From Lysobacter sp. K5869 (GTDB lineage Bacteria > Pseudomonadota > Gammaproteobacteria > Xanthomonadales > Xanthomonadaceae), in NCBI RefSeq assembly GCF_018847975.1, contig NZ_CP072597.1, positions 5,185,001-5,249,000 of the forward strand: DNA of 64,000 nucleotides. The letters are read 5' to 3'. The translations under genes were made by a program, and so were the position numbers. How positions within the stretch are numbered: the first letter of the stretch is position 1; each line of letters begins with the position of its first letter. This document shows, in pieces, positions 4,395 through 56,718 of this stretch. The notes under the pieces were generated by a model. It ran no database searches. It worked only from the letters and a program-made list of their open reading frames with translations, and had not been told where the DNA came from.

Positions 4395-5654
4395 GTGATC
4401 CGCAACCTCCTCTTCGTCGCCCGACTCGCCGCTGCCTGGTTCGGCGCGTTCGTGTTGCTCGGGCTGATCGCCTCGGCCATGCCGGTCTTGGATCGCCTGG
4501 ATCAGGGGCCGTTGTTCATCGTCGCGATCCTGGTGTCGATCTACGTCGCCAGCAAGGCGTTCTCGCATCTGCGCCGGGTGCGCCTGATCGCCGGCCACGT
4601 CGATGCGACCACGCGCTCCAACCGCCAGCGCCGCCAGATCGAGGTGCCGTTCGAGGTCGAGGAGACCTTCGACCTGCTCGACGCCGCGATCCGCGAACTG
4701 CCGCGGGTGGAGGACGTGGAAAGCGCGCGCGACAGCCTGCAGATCCGGGCCAAGGTGCAGCGCTCCGATCAGGCCTGGTCGCTCGACGTGCAGGGCGCGG
4801 ACCCCAACAACTGGAAGTACGGCCGCGCCCGCAACCAGATTCAGGCCACGGTCGATTCCGGCGCCGACGGCAGCCGCATCACCCTGATCTGCGAACCCGA
4901 GATCGGCGCCTGGAGCGATTGGTTCTGCGTCGATCAGGGCACCAACCTGGAAAACGCCGAAGCCCTGCTGCGCGCCGTCGCCCGGCGCATGGCCGAGCGC
5001 CGCCGCGGCGAACGCGCCGACGCCGCGCGCACCGCCACCGAAAAGGAACTCGCGGTCGCCAAACTGAGCCTGCTGCACGCCCAGGTCGAACCGCACTTCC
5101 TCTACAACACCTTGGCCAGCGCGCAGTACCTGACCCGCCACGACCCGCCGCGCGCCGACGAAATGCTCGGCCACCTGATCGAATTCCTGCGCCGCTCGTT
5201 GCCGCGCACCGAGGACGCGCTGTCCACGCTCGGCGACGAACTGGAACGTTCGCGCGCTTACCTGGAAATCCTCAAGCTGCGCATGGGCCAGCGCCTGCAA
5301 ACGCAGATCGACGTGCCCGAGGAACTGCGCGCGCTGCCGCTGCCGCCGATGATCCTGCAGACCCTGGCCGAGAACGCGATCAAGCACGGCCTGGAACCCA
5401 AGCCCGGCGGCGGCACGGTGTGGATCCGCGCGCGCGGCGGCGAAGCCGGCGTGTCGATCACCGTCGCCGACGATGGCATGGGCCTGAACTCGCTCAATTC
5501 CGGCAGCGGCATCGGCCTGAGCAACGTGCGCGAACGCTTGCGGCTGGTCTACGGCGACCGCGCGCAGTTGTCGATCGTGGCCAATTTCCCCAGCGGCGTC
5601 GCCGCCACCATCGTCGTGCCGGCCGCGTCCGGCGAGGAGCGCGCCCGTGTCTGA
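4395..5654 (+). CDS. LytS/AlgZ-type sensor histidine kinase
   Basis: 419 residues from GTG 4395, which lies 8 bases after GACGGA and puts two membrane segments at the N terminus (about residues 5-28 and 38-53). The middle part (about 60-210) is a sensor region I do not recognise. The kinase core is of the His_kinase/LytS type: LHAQVEPHFLYN with the phosphorylatable His234, followed by an ATP-binding domain with LAENAIKHGL and a GIGLSNVRERL glycine-rich box. It phosphorylates a partner regulator at the inner membrane. The next gene, overlapping by 8 bases, encodes that LytTR regulator. An open upstream extension to 3924 is rejected as low-complexity sequence. Confidence 0.85.
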   Translation: MIRNLLFVARLAAAWFGAFVLLGLIASAMPVLDRLDQGPLFIVAILVSIYVASKAFSHLRRVRLIAGHVDATTRSNRQRRQIEVPFEVEETFDLLDAAIRELPRVEDVESARDSLQIRAKVQRSDQAWSLDVQGADPNNWKYGRARNQIQATVDSGADGSRITLICEPEIGAWSDWFCVDQGTNLENAEALLRAVARRMAERRRGERADAARTATEKELAVAKLSLLHAQVEPHFLYNTLASAQYLTRHDPPRADEMLGHLIEFLRRSLPRTEDALSTLGDELERSRAYLEILKLRMGQRLQTQIDVPEELRALPLPPMILQTLAENAIKHGLEPKPGGGTVWIRARGGEAGVSITVADDGMGLNSLNSGSGIGLSNVRERLRLVYGDRAQLSIVANFPSGVAATIVVPAASGEERARV

Positions 5655-6447
5655 GTCCACTACGCACGACGGCGCCGCGCCGACCGCGTTGATCGCCGAG
5701 GACGAAACGCTGCTGCGTCAGGCCTTGGTCGAAGCGCTGCGCGAAGCCTGGCCGGAGCTGCGCATCCTCGCCGAATGCGAGGACGGCGCGCAGGCGCTGG
5801 AAGCGCTGGCCGAACACCGTCCCGACGTCGCCTTCCTCGACATCCGCATGCCCGGCCTCACCGGCCTCGACCTCGCCGCGGCAGCGACCGAAGTCAGCCC
5901 CGCGACCCAGGTCGTGTTCGTCACCGCTTACGACCAGCACGCCATCGACGCGTTCGAGCACGGCGCGGTCGATTACCTGCTCAAGCCGGTCACCGTCGAC
6001 CGTCTCGCGGTGACCGTGCGTCGCCTGAGCGCGCGCCGCGCGCCCGGCAACGACCGTCAGGCCGCGCTGCGCGAGATCGCCAAGCAACTGGCCGCGCGCC
6101 GGCCGGCGCAGGAAGACAAGCCGGGCCTGACCTGGATCACCGCCAGCGCCGGCCGCGAGACCCGCCTGATCCTGGTCGACGATGTCGTCTATTTCCGCGC
6201 CGACAACAAGTACACCACGGTCGTCACCGCCGAAGGCGAAGCGCTGCTGCGCACGCCGATCCGCGAACTGCTCGACCGCCTCGACGGCGAACGCTTCAAG
6301 CAGATCCACCGTTCCACCATCGTCAACCTCAAGGCCATCGCGGGCATCGTCCGCGACGACAGCGGCAAGGGCACCGTGCGTCTGCGCGGACGGCCGGAGA
6401 CGCTGAGCGTGAGCCAGACCTTCATGACGCTGTTCAAGAGCATGTAG
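5647..6447 (+). CDS. LytTR-family response regulator (AlgR type)
   Basis: 266 residues. An N-terminal receiver domain (about 13-125) has acidic residues IAEDE and the phospho-acceptor Asp65 in FLDIRMPG. A C-terminal LytTR DNA-binding domain (about 158-262) contains FRADNKYTTVV and FKQIHRSTIVNL. Such regulators bind paired direct repeats upstream of target promoters once phosphorylated by a LytS-type kinase. The gene overlaps the end of the kinase gene, so the two are translationally coupled. Targets cannot be deduced from this window. Confidence 0.92.
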   Translation: MSESTTHDGAAPTALIAEDETLLRQALVEALREAWPELRILAECEDGAQALEALAEHRPDVAFLDIRMPGLTGLDLAAAATEVSPATQVVFVTAYDQHAIDAFEHGAVDYLLKPVTVDRLAVTVRRLSARRAPGNDRQAALREIAKQLAARRPAQEDKPGLTWITASAGRETRLILVDDVVYFRADNKYTTVVTAEGEALLRTPIRELLDRLDGERFKQIHRSTIVNLKAIAGIVRDDSGKGTVRLRGRPETLSVSQTFMTLFKSM

Positions 6448-41016: not shown

Positions 41017-41289
41017 TTATTCGTTCTCGTCGCCGCCGTCGCTGCCGTCCGCGGACTGCACGTAGCCGCCGCCCGGGCCGACGCGGACGTTGCGCGCGGG
41101 GACCACGGTGGAAATGGCGTGCTTGTAAACCATCTGGCTGACGGTGTTGCGCAACAGCACCACGAATTGGTCGAAAGATTCGATCGTGCCCTGCAGCTTG
41201 ATGCCGTTGACCAGGTAGACCGAAACCGGCACACGTTCGCGACGCAGCGCATTCAGGAAAGGATCCTGCAGGGATTGCCCCTTAGACAT
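41017..41289 (-). CDS. hfq: RNA chaperone Hfq
   Basis: 90 residues. The Sm1 part shows [14 protein letters not shown] and [13 protein letters not shown]; Sm2 shows VVLLRN and YKHAIST, whose Lys-His lies at the RNA-binding proximal face. Hfq is a hexamer that pairs small RNAs with mRNAs. The C-terminal tail ([20 protein letters not shown], about 71-90) is short and acidic. Between miaA and hflX, the usual place. Confidence 0.97.
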
Positions 41290-41492: not shown

Positions 41493-42482
41493 CTAAGCGC
41501 TCTGGACCGGCGCGCGCGCGGGGGCATCGGCGAACAGCCTCAAGGCATGCTCGAGTTCGGCCGCGTCGCGCAAAGGATCGAACCAGCGCGCGTCAAGTTC
41601 GCCGCGCAGCCAGGTCAACTGGCGCTTGGCCAGTTGCCGGGTGGCGTAGATGCCGCGGTCGCGCAGCTCGGCCGCGTCGAACGCGCCGTCGAGGTGTTCC
41701 CAGGCCTGGCGGTAGCCGACCGCGCGGATCGCCGGCAGCTCCAGCGGGCTCGGATGCCCGGCCAGACCCGGCCAGGCGCGCAGCGCGCGGACTTCGTCGA
41801 GGAAGCCGGCGGCCAGCATCGCGTCGAAGCGCCGCTCGATCCGCGCGTGCAGCACCGCGCGGTCGGCCGGCGCCAGCACCAGCTTGAGCACCCGGAACGG
41901 CAGCCGCGGCCGCCCGGCCGAGGCGCGGCGCCACTCGCTGATGGTGCGTCCCGACAGACGCCAAACTTCGAGCGCGCGCTGGATGCGCTGAGCGTCGGTG
42001 GCGTGGATGCGCGCGGCGGCCTCCGGGTCGAGCGCGGCCAGTTCGGCGTGCAGCGCGGCCCAGCCGCGTTCGGCCGCCTCCGCGGTCAGCGCGGCGCGGG
42101 TGGCCGGATCGGCCTCGGGCATGTCCGACAGGCCGCGCAGCAAGGCGTGGAAGTACAGCCCGGTGCCGCCAGCGAGGATCGGGACGCGGCCGCGCGCGGC
42201 GATCTGCTCCATCGCCCGGCGCGCGTCGGCGGCGAACTCGGCCGCCGAATACGCCTGCCACGGCTCGCGCACGTCGATCAGATGGTGCGGCACCGCCGCC
42301 TGCTCGGCCGCGCTGGGCTTGGCCGCGCCGATGTCCAGGCCGCGGTAGACCAGGGCCGAATCGACGCTGACGATCTCCGCGTCCAGGCGCTGGGCCCACT
42401 CCAGGGCGAGCGCGGTCTTGCCCGAAGCGGTCGGGCCCATCAGGGCGATGGCGAGCGGGCGCGGGTCGTGGGAAGCGCTCAT
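41493..42482 (-). CDS. miaA: tRNA dimethylallyltransferase
   Basis: 329 residues from the ATG at 42482. It adds dimethylallyl to A37 of tRNAs reading U-starting codons. The P-loop GPTASGKT lies at 16-23, followed by [17 protein letters not shown], a variant of the family DSAxxYRxxxIGTAKP. Later signatures are [14 protein letters not shown] and [19 protein letters not shown]. The start gives the standard N terminus; the in-frame extension to 42602 is shadow. Downstream neighbour is hfq. Its upstream side abuts the repeat array. Confidence 0.95.
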
Positions 42483-42681
42483 GCGGATGCGGCGGGGCGA
42501 AGCGGACGCGACGCGCAGCCTCGCACAGGCGCGCGGCCCGCGAAAGCCGGCCCGCCGTCGCCGCGGCGCCGCCCCGACCGGTGCGCAAGCGCGCTGCGGC
42601 AAGCCTTTGCGCCGGCCGCCCCCGCTCTCATCGGACCCGACTTAAGCAGAATTTGCACATTTCTTGACCAGTCCGTTGCAG

Positions 42682-43837
42682 TTGTCCACATCCCCTGTGG
42701 ACAAGCCTGCGGACAGTTTTTCGATTGCACGCGCGAAGCCTTGCGGCATAAGCATTGCAAGAGAGTTGGCGAGAAATTGACCAGTGAATTTCCTTGACAT
42801 TGCCGCGGGCATCGGCATCCCGGCCCGGCGCACGCGACGCTGTCCGCAGCGCCCGTGGACAAGCGTGCGGACACGCGGGCGCGAATCGGGTTTCACGCCT
42901 TATGCGGCGGGGCTTTGGGGAGATTGGCGATTTTTTGTCCGCGCGCCGCGGCGCTTGCCGTGGGCGGTGCGCGATGCGCGCCTTCAGCGCCGCCGGCGTG
43001 TTGCGGCGCACCAGGGCACGCTGGAAATTTTCGCCGCCCTGCCCCGTCCGCAGGCACGCGAGGCGCCGCGGGCGCTCGCTTCTGCGGGAACGCCCGCTGT
43101 TCGGCGCTGACGCTATCCACACAGCCTGTGGACAAGCATTGGGACACACGCGTTGGAATCGGGTTTCACGCCTTGCGCCGCAAGGCCTCGGCGAGATTGG
43201 CTATTTTTTGTCCAGATCGGATTTTCGCCGCGACGACGCTCGGCGACGACGCGCCGCGACGCCGCGGCCTTGCGTTTTCCCATGTTTTTCCCTAGACGCC
43301 TCTCCTCGATGCGGCGTCGCTATCCACACAGCCTGTGGACAAGCACTGGGATACACGCAGTGGAATCGGGTTTCACGCCTTACGCCGCAAGGCTTCGGCA
43401 AGATTGGCTGTTTTTTGTCCACTGTGGATTTCCGCGCCGTCCATGCTCGACGACGAGGCGTCGCGAGGCCGAAGCCTTGCGTTTTTCGGCATGTCCTCTT
43501 AGCCGCCCCGCATCGAAAGCGCGTCGCTATCCACACAGCCTGTGGACAAGCACTGGGATACACGCGTTGGAATCGGGTTTCACGCCTTACGCCGCAAGGG
43601 TTCGGCGAGATTGGCTATATTTTGTCCATCGCGGATTTTCGCGTCGGCCATGCTCGGCGACGAAGCGCCGCAACGTCGTGGCCTTGCGTTTTTTGGCATT
43701 TCCTCTTAGCCGCCCCGCATCGAAAGCGCGTCGCTATCCACACAGCCTGTGGACAAGCACTGGGATACACGCAGTGGAATCGGGTTTCACGCCTGCAACG
43801 CCAAGGCTTTCGGGAAACTGGCGAAAATTTCGCCAGT
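42682..43837. repeat. Six-unit repeat array with paired DnaA-box-like motifs
   Basis: Six units are visible. Paired inverted 9-mers mark them. Unit 1 has TTGTCCACA (42682-42690) and TGTGGACAA (42696-42704). Unit 2 is degenerate (CGTGGACAA at 42854-42862). Units 3-6 each have CTATCCACA, a CAGCC spacer and TGTGGACAA; the second box starts at 43127, 43334, 43541 and 43748, an exact 207-base period. After the boxes most units continue with GGAATCGGGTTTCACGCC, a GCCTT/AAGGC mini-hairpin, and GATTGGCTATTTTTTGTCC. The 9-mers fit the relaxed DnaA-box form known from high-GC bacteria. Confidence 0.88.
43817..43837 (-). terminator. Hairpin at the end of folP
   Basis: Perfect 9-bp stem ACTGGCGAA / TTCGCCAGT with a 3-base loop, 44 bases past the folP stop at the edge of the repeat array. 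On the minus strand it is followed by TTCCCG, a weak T tract, so terminator function is likely but not certain. Confidence 0.55.
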
Positions 43838-43880: not shown

Positions 43881-44780
43881 TCAATCCTCGTCGGGCCACT
43901 TGGGCATCGCCGGCGCCGCCGCGCGGCGCGGCTGGGCCTGCGCGGCCACCGCATCCCACACCTTCAAGGCGTCGACCGTGGCGGCGACGTCGTGCGCGCG
44001 CAGCAGGCGCGCGCCGCGCTGGGCCGCGATCAGATGCGCGGCGACCGAGCCGTACACGCGCTCGGCGGGCGCGTCGCGGCCGGTCAGCTCGCCGATGCTG
44101 CGCTTGCGCGACAGCCCGGCCAGCACCGGCACGCCGAGTTCGGCGAAGCGCTCCAATTGCGCGAGCAGCGTGAGGTTGTGCGCCAGGGTCTTGCCGAAGC
44201 CGAAGCCCGGATCGACCAGGATGCGCTTCTTGGCGATGCCGGCCATCTCGGCGGCGAAGATGCGCTCGGCCAGGAAGCGGTGCACCTCGGCGACGACATC
44301 GTCGTAGCGCGGCTCGTGCTGCATCGAGCGCGGCTCGCCCTGCATGTGCATCAGCACGACCGGCACGCCGAGCTCGGCGGCGGCGTCGAGCGCGCCCTCG
44401 CGGCGCAGGCCGTAGACGTCGTTGATCAGCCCGGCGCCGGCGGCGACCGCGGCGCGCATGACCTCGGGCTTGGACGTGTCGATACTCAGCGGCAGCGCGG
44501 TCTCGCGCGCGAGGCGTTCGATCACCGGAATCGTGCGGCGCAGTTCTTCCTCGACGGACACCTCGGCGGCGCCGGGACGGGTCGATTCGCCGCCGATGTC
44601 GAGGATGTCCGCACCCTCCGCCGCGAGCCGCAAGCCGTGCGCGACCGCGGCCTCGAGCGTGTCGTGGGCGCCGCCGTCGGAGAACGAATCGGGGGTGACG
44701 TTGACGATGCCCATCACCCGCGGGCGGTCGAGCTTGAGGACGCGGCCGTTGCAGTCCAGGACGGGGCTCAGATCGAACAT
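43881..44780 (-). CDS. folP: Dihydropteroate synthase
   Basis: 299 residues. It condenses p-aminobenzoate with dihydropterin pyrophosphate in folate synthesis and is the sulfonamide target. Signatures are VMGIVNVTPDSFSDGG (about 22-37), DILDIGGESTRPGA (about 59-72) and the late LAGLSRKRSIGEL loop; an internal DPGFGFGKTLAHN element is also present. The Lys-Arg-rich end is slightly longer than usual. The start at 44780 gives the normal N terminus. It is 58 bases after the NTF2-like gene and may share its transcript. Confidence 0.95.
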   Translation of the reverse strand: MFDLSPVLDCNGRVLKLDRPRVMGIVNVTPDSFSDGGAHDTLEAAVAHGLRLAAEGADILDIGGESTRPGAAEVSVEEELRRTIPVIERLARETALPLSIDTSKPEVMRAAVAAGAGLINDVYGLRREGALDAAAELGVPVVLMHMQGEPRSMQHEPRYDDVVAEVHRFLAERIFAAEMAGIAKKRILVDPGFGFGKTLAHNLTLLAQLERFAELGVPVLAGLSRKRSIGELTGRDAPAERVYGSVAAHLIAAQRGARLLRAHDVAATVDALKVWDAVAAQAQPRRAAAPAMPKWPDED

Positions 44781-56389: not shown

Positions 56390-56718
56390 GACTTCGGCTC
56401 CCTGACGTGATGGCCCGCGGCGAGGCGGGCGCAGCCGGCCCCTGCCGGCTGTCGCTTCCGGCTTATACGCCGGCGGCGGCGGCGGGCCAGTGCCGCGGCT
56501 TGCCAACCGACGAGCGGTCGCGCGGGGGGAGCCAATCGTGCGCTCGCGGGGACGGGCGCCGGCGCGGCTGCGCGCGGCGGCGGAATCGCGCTGGAATCGC
56601 GCTGGAATCGCGCTGGAATCGCGCTGGGTTCGAGCCGGATTGGCGCCGGATTGGCGCCGGATTCGCGGCGGGGACGCACGGCCCAGCGAGGCGCCGCGCG
56701 CGAAGCGAACGCGCGCCG
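56390..56718. other. Intergenic region downstream of truD with tandem repeats
   Basis: 329 bases between truD and the small lipoprotein gene. It contains the 11-bp tandem repeat (56582-56669). I see no gene and no clear T-tract terminator. The open frames across it exist because stop codons are rare at this base composition. Confidence 0.7.
56582..56669. repeat. 11-bp tandem repeat, eight units
   Basis: Four exact copies of GGAATCGCGCT are followed by four diverged copies (GGGTTCGAGCC, two GGATTGGCGCC, GGATTCGCGGC), all in an unbroken 11-base period. It starts about 50 bases past the truD stop. Eleven is not a multiple of three, so copy-number change would shift any frame crossing it. Confidence 0.9.

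Follow-up and report, generated by a model that had tools for sequence, protein, structure and literature searches.

The window analysed here, 64,000 nucleotides at positions 5,185,001-5,249,000 of the single 5,968,034-bp contig of the soil bacterium Lysobacter sp. K5869, contains two housekeeping genes on the minus strand, miaA (41493..42482; TIGR00174 306.7 bits, cut-off 148.65; Pfam IPPT) and folP (43881..44780; TIGR01496 DHPS 329.3 bits, cut-off 162.6), which flank an array of six tandem units of DnaA-box-like sequence (42682-43834, ~1.15 kb); hfq (41017-41289; Pfam Hfq) is the next gene after miaA. Every unit is composed of a box I, a 5-bp spacer, an inverted box II, a further 3 bp and a box III oriented like box II, and includes a 15-bp Fis-type element at +86 from the start of box I. 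The unit-to-unit distance is 158 bp between units 1 and 2, 273 bp between units 2 and 3, and exactly 207 bp throughout units 3-6.

All six units lie on the plus strand. Unit 1 (42682..42782) has boxes I, II and III at 42682-42690, 42696-42704 and 42708-42716, its boxes I and II reading TTGTCCACA-TCCCC-TGTGGACAA, and the Fis-like GGCGAGAAATTGACC, one base off, at 42768-42782. In unit 2 (42840..42940) boxes I (42840-42848) and II (42854-42862) are degenerate, CTGTCCGCA-GCGCC-CGTGGACAA, and are followed by box III at 42866-42874 and GGCGATTTTTTGTCC at 42926-42940. The remaining four units share CTATCCACA-CAGCC-TGTGGACAA as boxes I and II: unit 3 (43113..43213; boxes at 43113-43121, 43127-43135 and 43139-43147; GGCTATTTTTTGTCC at 43199-43213), unit 4 (43320..43420; boxes at 43320-43328, 43334-43342 and 43346-43354; GGCTGTTTTTTGTCC, one base off, at 43406-43420), unit 5 (43527..43627; boxes at 43527-43535, 43541-43549 and 43553-43561; GGCTATATTTTGTCC at 43613-43627) and unit 6 (43734..43834; boxes at 43734-43742, 43748-43756 and 43760-43768; GGCGAAAATTTCGCC at 43820-43834). 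Box III was found in all six units and is weak in units 4-6 (CTGGGATAC). The array thus drawn agrees with the first-pass annotation, which had described six tandem units between miaA and folP, the inverted pair with TCCCC in unit 1, the CAGCC spacer and 207-base repeat of units 3-6, and about ten DnaA-like sites; exact copies of the 9-mers TTATCCACA, TTGTCCACA and CTATCCACA number 10 in the window, every one inside the array, and with weak boxes counted the array holds 18.

On the miaA side, a further Fis-like element (GCACATTTCTTGACC, 42655..42669, plus strand, one base off) starts 27 bp ahead of unit 1, with its DnaA boxes gone. In many relatives the first two miaA-side units stand exactly 114 bp apart; since 27 bp matches this 114-bp spacing with a Fis offset of 87, as in other Lysobacter, the element is read as the remnant of a lost proto-unit. 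A separate sequence, GGGTTTCACGCC, is identical across units 2-6 (at 42888, 43161, 43368, 43575 and 43782) and is missing in unit 1 and in the solo unit L010. Elsewhere in the window, at 56577-56671, an 11-bp unit, GGAATCGCGCT, is repeated in tandem 7.8 times.

A genome-wide scan for the inverted pair (5-bp spacer, at most two mismatches) returned 13 places, against 0 for a reversed-pattern control; six belong to this array, five to a second array, and two are solo. The array is therefore neither a product of chance nor a dispersed repeat with hundreds of copies, the case that the first-pass annotation had set against a DnaA role. The second array (G000:C1:5297102-5297877, minus strand; 5125-5878 of locus L009) comprises five DARS-type units, adds 15 boxes, and lies ~68 kb from the first; second arrays also occur in G009 (four units), G015 (five), and G002 and G004 (four each, with one flank covered). 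The solo unit L010 (G000:C1:3580234) lies 0.85 of the way to the terminus. A single DARS-type element of canonical composition (L146/L207, G000:C1:456233-456653) lies near priA, a gene named by profile match; 115 bp separate its pair from the priA start.

Among 369 gammaproteobacterial genomes, perfect pairs were most numerous here (7; 0-5 in the others), and a perfect pair occurred somewhere in 184 of them, so that the single element is not specific to the folP-miaA locus; across a 79-genome sample of the family, the most pairs were again counted here (12), followed by G455 (6), with one or two in 58. When one mismatch was allowed in eight other genomes, G046 showed three pairs within 0.5 kb, and G240 and G347 two within 0.6 kb. 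Paraburkholderia bannensis (a betaproteobacterium in the older sense) has one DARS-like core (L066, position 4501), which closely precedes a gene identified by eye as gyrB/parE-like, and no Fis-type site at +86.

Within the genus the array is conserved in place and variable in size, the two properties for which the first-pass annotation had pointed to related genomes. In a search of 60 genomes, this one included, the unit query matched all 19 other genomes of the genus, five of them only over 25-27 bp, and beyond the genus 2 of 40 relatives (G046, G056), for no more than 25-28 bp. Counting this one, 19 of the 20 genomes of the genus have folP and miaA on either side of the array; in the remaining genome (G014, L045) it lies beside folP, and the sequence examined did not reach miaA. 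Copy number ranges from 4 to 11 units by the chosen threshold, which gives a floor (G003 has five units by threshold vs. nine BLAST matches). In L. enzymogenes ATCC 29487 (L072), hflX, hfq, miaA and folP are 91-98% identical to their counterparts here, which suggests a close relationship to that species; hflX, like ftsH and rlmE, was named by eye.

In the family survey, which covered 60 regions of up to 5 kb upstream of miaA, folP was visible in 44; 18 of these 44 folP-miaA intervals contain at least one pair (by a threshold that allows two mismatches over 17 positions) and 26 contain none, folP abuts miaA in 12, and none of these 12 has a pair. Three of the 18 pair-bearing intervals (L155, L158, L201) have Lysobacter-like units. 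Altogether, 35 pairs were found in 56,199 bp of folP-miaA intervals vs. 0 in the 158,191 bp made up of folP and the sequence past it, a comparison stretch that is mostly coding. G455 (L159), of another genus, has its own array in the folP-miaA interval, with four TTGTGCACA-N5-TGTGGACAA pairs at 119-bp spacing; Fis-like elements are present, and box III is not at its usual place. No description of a tandem DARS-type array was found in the top-ranked open-licence titles and abstract openings, which is weak evidence of absence, and no open-licence paper was found that treats DARS1, DARS2 and Xanthomonas together.

In E. coli, the DnaA-reactivating DARS are described as at least two solitary loci, and a 2009 paper by Fujimitsu is reportedly the founding one. 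E. coli K-12 DARS1 reads TTATCCACT-ATTCC-TGTGGATAA-CCA-TGTGTATTA, which is the 9-5-9-3-9 arrangement of the array units; DARS2 likewise has a 5-bp spacer, with box III listed 2 bp on in Table 1 of PMC11317965. The head-to-head boxes I and II are termed essential and characteristic for DARS in a passage of PMC10380432, which also reports sequences resembling DARS1 and DARS2 in many proteobacterial species; single DARS-type elements are therefore already known. In the array, the core of three DnaA boxes recurs in all six units (in degenerate form in unit 2, and with a weak box III in units 4-6), the 5-bp spacing of boxes I and II, as in DARS1 and DARS2, in 6/6, and a box III in the same orientation as box II, within the 2-3 bp typical of DARS, in 6/6, always at 3 bp.

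The same geometry extends across the class. A search of 114 gammaproteobacterial genomes for TATCCACA, 0-16 bases and TGTGGATAA found head-to-head pairs at 78 places in 51 genomes (taking the larger of forward and reverse count per genome), against 2 for the reversed-pattern control, and the spacer was exactly 5 bp in 74 of the 78. Among 20 hand-picked elements that were fetched (19 from 16 other genomes and one solo element of this genome), box III followed 3 bp past box II, with at least 6/9 matches, in 19, and at any other gap from 0 to 30 bp in never more than 3; the count used the orientation with the better box III, the opposite orientation scoring 0-4/9. By sequence, the 5-bp spacer and the box III at 3 bp thus assign the array units to a class-wide DARS-type element. 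As a point against a DARS reading, the array boxes deviate from the TTATCCACA of oriC and of L146, box I being CTATCCACA or TTGTCCACA, with the weak box III of units 4-6 and the degenerate unit 2 as further deviations.

Beyond the boxes, the Fis-type element holds a fixed offset. The exact pattern GNNNAWWWWWTNNNC stands at +86 in units 2, 3, 5 and 6, with a single-base deviation in units 1 and 4; it recurs at +85 to +87 in 124 of 177 sequence-distinct units from related genomes (200 shuffles: mean 0.67, maximum 4), a set that includes three opposite-strand readings of one pair (L025, L047, L066). The stricter E. coli Fis consensus GNNYANNNNNTRNNC is matched by only 63/177 units (shuffle mean 9.9, maximum 18), and position 4 of the element is G in 49% of units. 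The first-pass annotation had seen a mini-hairpin and a T6 tract in each unit; that place is taken by the Fis-type site. A Fis-like score of at least 5, which tolerates a G in position 5 and a C in position 11, was reached at +86 by 14 of the 18 elements from other gammaproteobacteria (the exact pattern by 4/18), a count that leaves out L010 and L146 of this genome and L130, which has no box III; the next-best offset reached it in 2 of 20 elements. Neither E. coli DARS1 nor DARS2 attains this score at +86 (3.6 each), and the array site at +85-87 is not at the place of E. coli FBS2-3.

An IHF motif scoring at least 8/9 is present in 15 of 20 gammaproteobacterial rows, at +119 (3), +120 (8) or +121 (4), in a count that includes L146 and both E. 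coli DARS and leaves out L130 and L132 (too short); vs. none of the 177 array-type units at +117-123, no more than in shuffles. Scanning offsets up to +115 revealed no enriched offset for this motif, and a few single units score 8 or more there.

The gene dnaA is found at 1.06 Mb, and the interval separating it from dnaN holds an ordinary oriC with two perfect inverted TTATCCACA boxes; the array, which the first-pass annotation had already placed far from the dnaA-dnaN origin, is 1.80 Mb away, or 0.60 of half the chromosome. In nine of the ten genomes compared, two of which are not in one piece, the array lies at 0.56-0.68 of half the chromosome from dnaA; the exception, G005 at 0.20, is not mid-replichore and speaks against a DARS. 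The corresponding E. coli values are 0.66 for DARS1, 0.41 for DARS2 and 0.20 for datA, measured from the E. coli oriC coordinate to the DARS and datA places, where DARS and datA boxes were found. The machinery is at hand: the DnaA protein is 55% identical to E. coli DnaA, with ARPRQ and GRDHTTVLHACR, which we take to be the box-reading motifs, both intact; Hda is present (225.2 vs. a curated cut-off of 194.8), as is Fis (G000:C1:104279-104500, 50% identity, E 2e-19).

Taken together, the array is probably a tandem battery of DARS-type, i.e. DnaA-reactivating, elements, a reading to which we assign a probability of roughly 0.6 on sequence grounds. The first-pass annotation had proposed a datA- or DARS-like locus; the DARS-like half of that proposal is supported on architecture, because box geometry, a Fis-type site at a shared offset, and a conserved folP/miaA position with varying copies all point the same way, and the datA half is weaker, as no IHF motif is found at its usual place and the array is not near oriC. 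The units are termed DARS-type rather than DARS2 since they are DARS cores by architecture, lack the IHF motif that DARS2 requires, and are predicted to release ADP from DnaA. Binding of DnaA and Fis, release of ADP and an effect on initiation would be expected from this anatomy and from E. coli biochemistry, as described in the parts of PMC10380432, PMC4245941 and PMC4585315 drawn upon here. Each unit of ~100 bp would hold a head-to-head pair of DnaA molecules on boxes I and II, across the 5-bp spacer; a further DnaA on box III, 3 bp beyond, may stabilise the complex, and a dimer of Fis type, 86 bp from box I, would introduce a bend and aid assembly. As E. coli DARS1 and DARS2 are described to do, this head-to-head contact would drive ADP out of DnaA, and the apo-DnaA released could rebind ATP and become able to start replication. 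With 4-11 units at mid-replichore, reactivation capacity would be higher, and with no IHF site it would presumably follow Fis, and thus growth, instead of the timing set by IHF.

Because a DARS core doubles as a cluster of strong binding, the main rival is a titration sink, in which the array would soak up DnaA and delay initiation, the head-to-head geometry merely strengthening binding. Many boxes are packed into 1.1 kb; DnaA is reported to favour double boxes 2-3 bp apart (in a passage of PMC11317965), and boxes II and III form such a pair; DARS1, DARS2 and datA are all listed as ChIP peaks in E. coli (PMC11317965, in part), and titration is presented as a live model in that organism (PMC12371093, in part). 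A sink, however, needs neither the fixed 5-bp and 3-bp spacings nor the Fis-type site at +86, which are kept here and in the single elements of other families, and it would be expected near oriC, where duplication is early, rather than 0.60 of the way to the terminus. We regard it as unlikely, though worth serious attention.

A DnaA-controlled regulatory region of miaA-hfq (or folP), switching the operon with the cell cycle, is quite improbable. The first unit lies upstream of miaA, ~80 bp from the gene's start in several relatives and 200 bp from it here, and DnaA is noted to double as a transcription factor (PMC11317965, in part); yet several other genera have pairs 1.6-3.1 kb from miaA, beside folP, and a promoter needs fewer than 4-11 copies. 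The second array, moreover, sits between a hemJ-like gene (Pfam UPF0093 above its cut-off, below the NCBIfam HemJ cut-off) and an alkaline-phosphatase gene named by profile, and the solo unit L064 has a PAS histidine kinase on one side and a response regulator of LuxR type on the other, both also named by profile. A sigma-70 scan, which misses other promoter types, returned 0 promoter-like sites (shuffles 0.1).

Very improbable is a datA-like site that inactivates ATP-DnaA, with E. coli datA and the array as possible positional relatives. The two are alike in being clusters of DnaA boxes in a miaA-hfq neighbourhood: the datA-region boxes of E. coli K-12 (4392677-4392918) lie 6.3 kb upstream of miaA-hfq, with miaA at 4399252. 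They differ in that datA requires IHF, according to the part of PMC10380432 consulted, whereas the IHF motif (at least 8/9, +117-123) occurs in 0/177 units; in that the datA boxes are not in a 9-5-9-3-9 arrangement; and in that datA is near oriC, at 0.20 vs. 0.60 of the way to the terminus for the array, G005 at 0.20 being the exception. Membership in datA was rejected on the missing IHF motif and the distance from oriC. Since tblastn (1e-6) with nnr, tsaE, amiB and mutL of E. coli gave no match within up to 5 kb upstream of miaA at 60 family loci (two of them shorter), the closeness of datA to miaA is treated as coincidental, though worth a look.

A tandem series of small structured RNAs with their ends at T6 tracts or spacer terminators, the alternative of the first-pass annotation, is the least credible explanation and was rejected on covariation, pairing and Rfam evidence. 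The near-identical units do adjoin hfq, and T-runs of five or longer occur at +84 to +104 in 54/177 units, but runs of four or more A are about as common at the same place (59/177). Of four terminator-like sites on the plus strand (2.6 +/- 1.6 expected), three fall in the spacers after units 3-5; in the +86 element the outer positions pair (at 171, 134 and 156 of 171 sites), but since the inner positions 3/13 and 4/12 do so at only 56 and 53 of 171, it is not a terminator stem. Folding is better than in shuffled sequence for units 1 and 6 (z -2.83 and -2.14), whereas for units 2-5 it is not (z 0.24 to -1.18). For 116 non-redundant units, RNAalifold recovered the box I/II hairpin only, with an energy below all 60 column-shuffled energies and no covariation gain; box I position 2 pairs with box II in 108/177 units vs. 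83 expected, as inverted DNA sites may too, position 0 is uncompensated (41 paired, 44 expected), and only one position pair exceeds expectation. No Rfam match was obtained, even at E<=1.

If the array is a DARS-type battery, its copy number may tune the start of chromosome replication. The natural series of 2-11 units per array, sometimes in two arrays, would make the relation of DARS dosage to initiation timing testable, and likewise whether the arrays recharge DnaA or only titrate it; the fixed offsets of the Fis-type site (+86) and of the IHF motif (~+120) could serve as a motif for annotating DARS candidates across the Gammaproteobacteria. A wider proposal, to which we would give even odds, is that initiation in Lysobacter and its kin is controlled by a multi-copy, IHF-free, Fis-linked tandem DARS battery, whose unit number (2-11, with one clade adding a second array) evolves as an ATP-DnaA rheostat. 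Such a battery would trace back to a DARS-type element of the folP-miaA interval, with a parallel amplification in G455; and the 9-5-9-3-9 core, with Fis-type site at +86 and IHF at ~+120, would be the general gammaproteobacterial DARS layout, with DARS1 and DARS2 of E. coli as separate departures from it.

Among the known systems, E. coli DARS1, upstream of uvrB, shares with the array units the 9-5-9-3-9 order of three boxes with box II inverted, as well as a G at +86 and a C at +100 within a TTGGCG...GGC flank, and a similar position, 0.66 of the way to the terminus; it differs in being single-copy, vs. the 6+5 tandem copies with diverged boxes in Lysobacter, and its +86 stretch is without the A5/T11 of the Fis consensus (score 3.6). 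According to PMC4585315, DARS1 requires no protein factor, and IHF is needed by DARS2 and not by DARS1. DARS2, upstream of mutH, has the head-to-head core and the 5-bp spacer in common with the array, and Fis is described as involved in its action (PMC4245941, in part); its IHF sites (a 9/9 motif at +119), extra boxes, box III at 2 bp and lack of a Fis-like site at +86 distinguish it from the array units, which have the Fis-type site at +86, no IHF motif and a tandem arrangement. The canonical single element of this genome, L146, shares the core (box III 6/9) and the exact Fis-type site at +86 with the array, and differs from it in its TTATCCACA boxes, its IHF motif (8/9 at +121) and its single copy.
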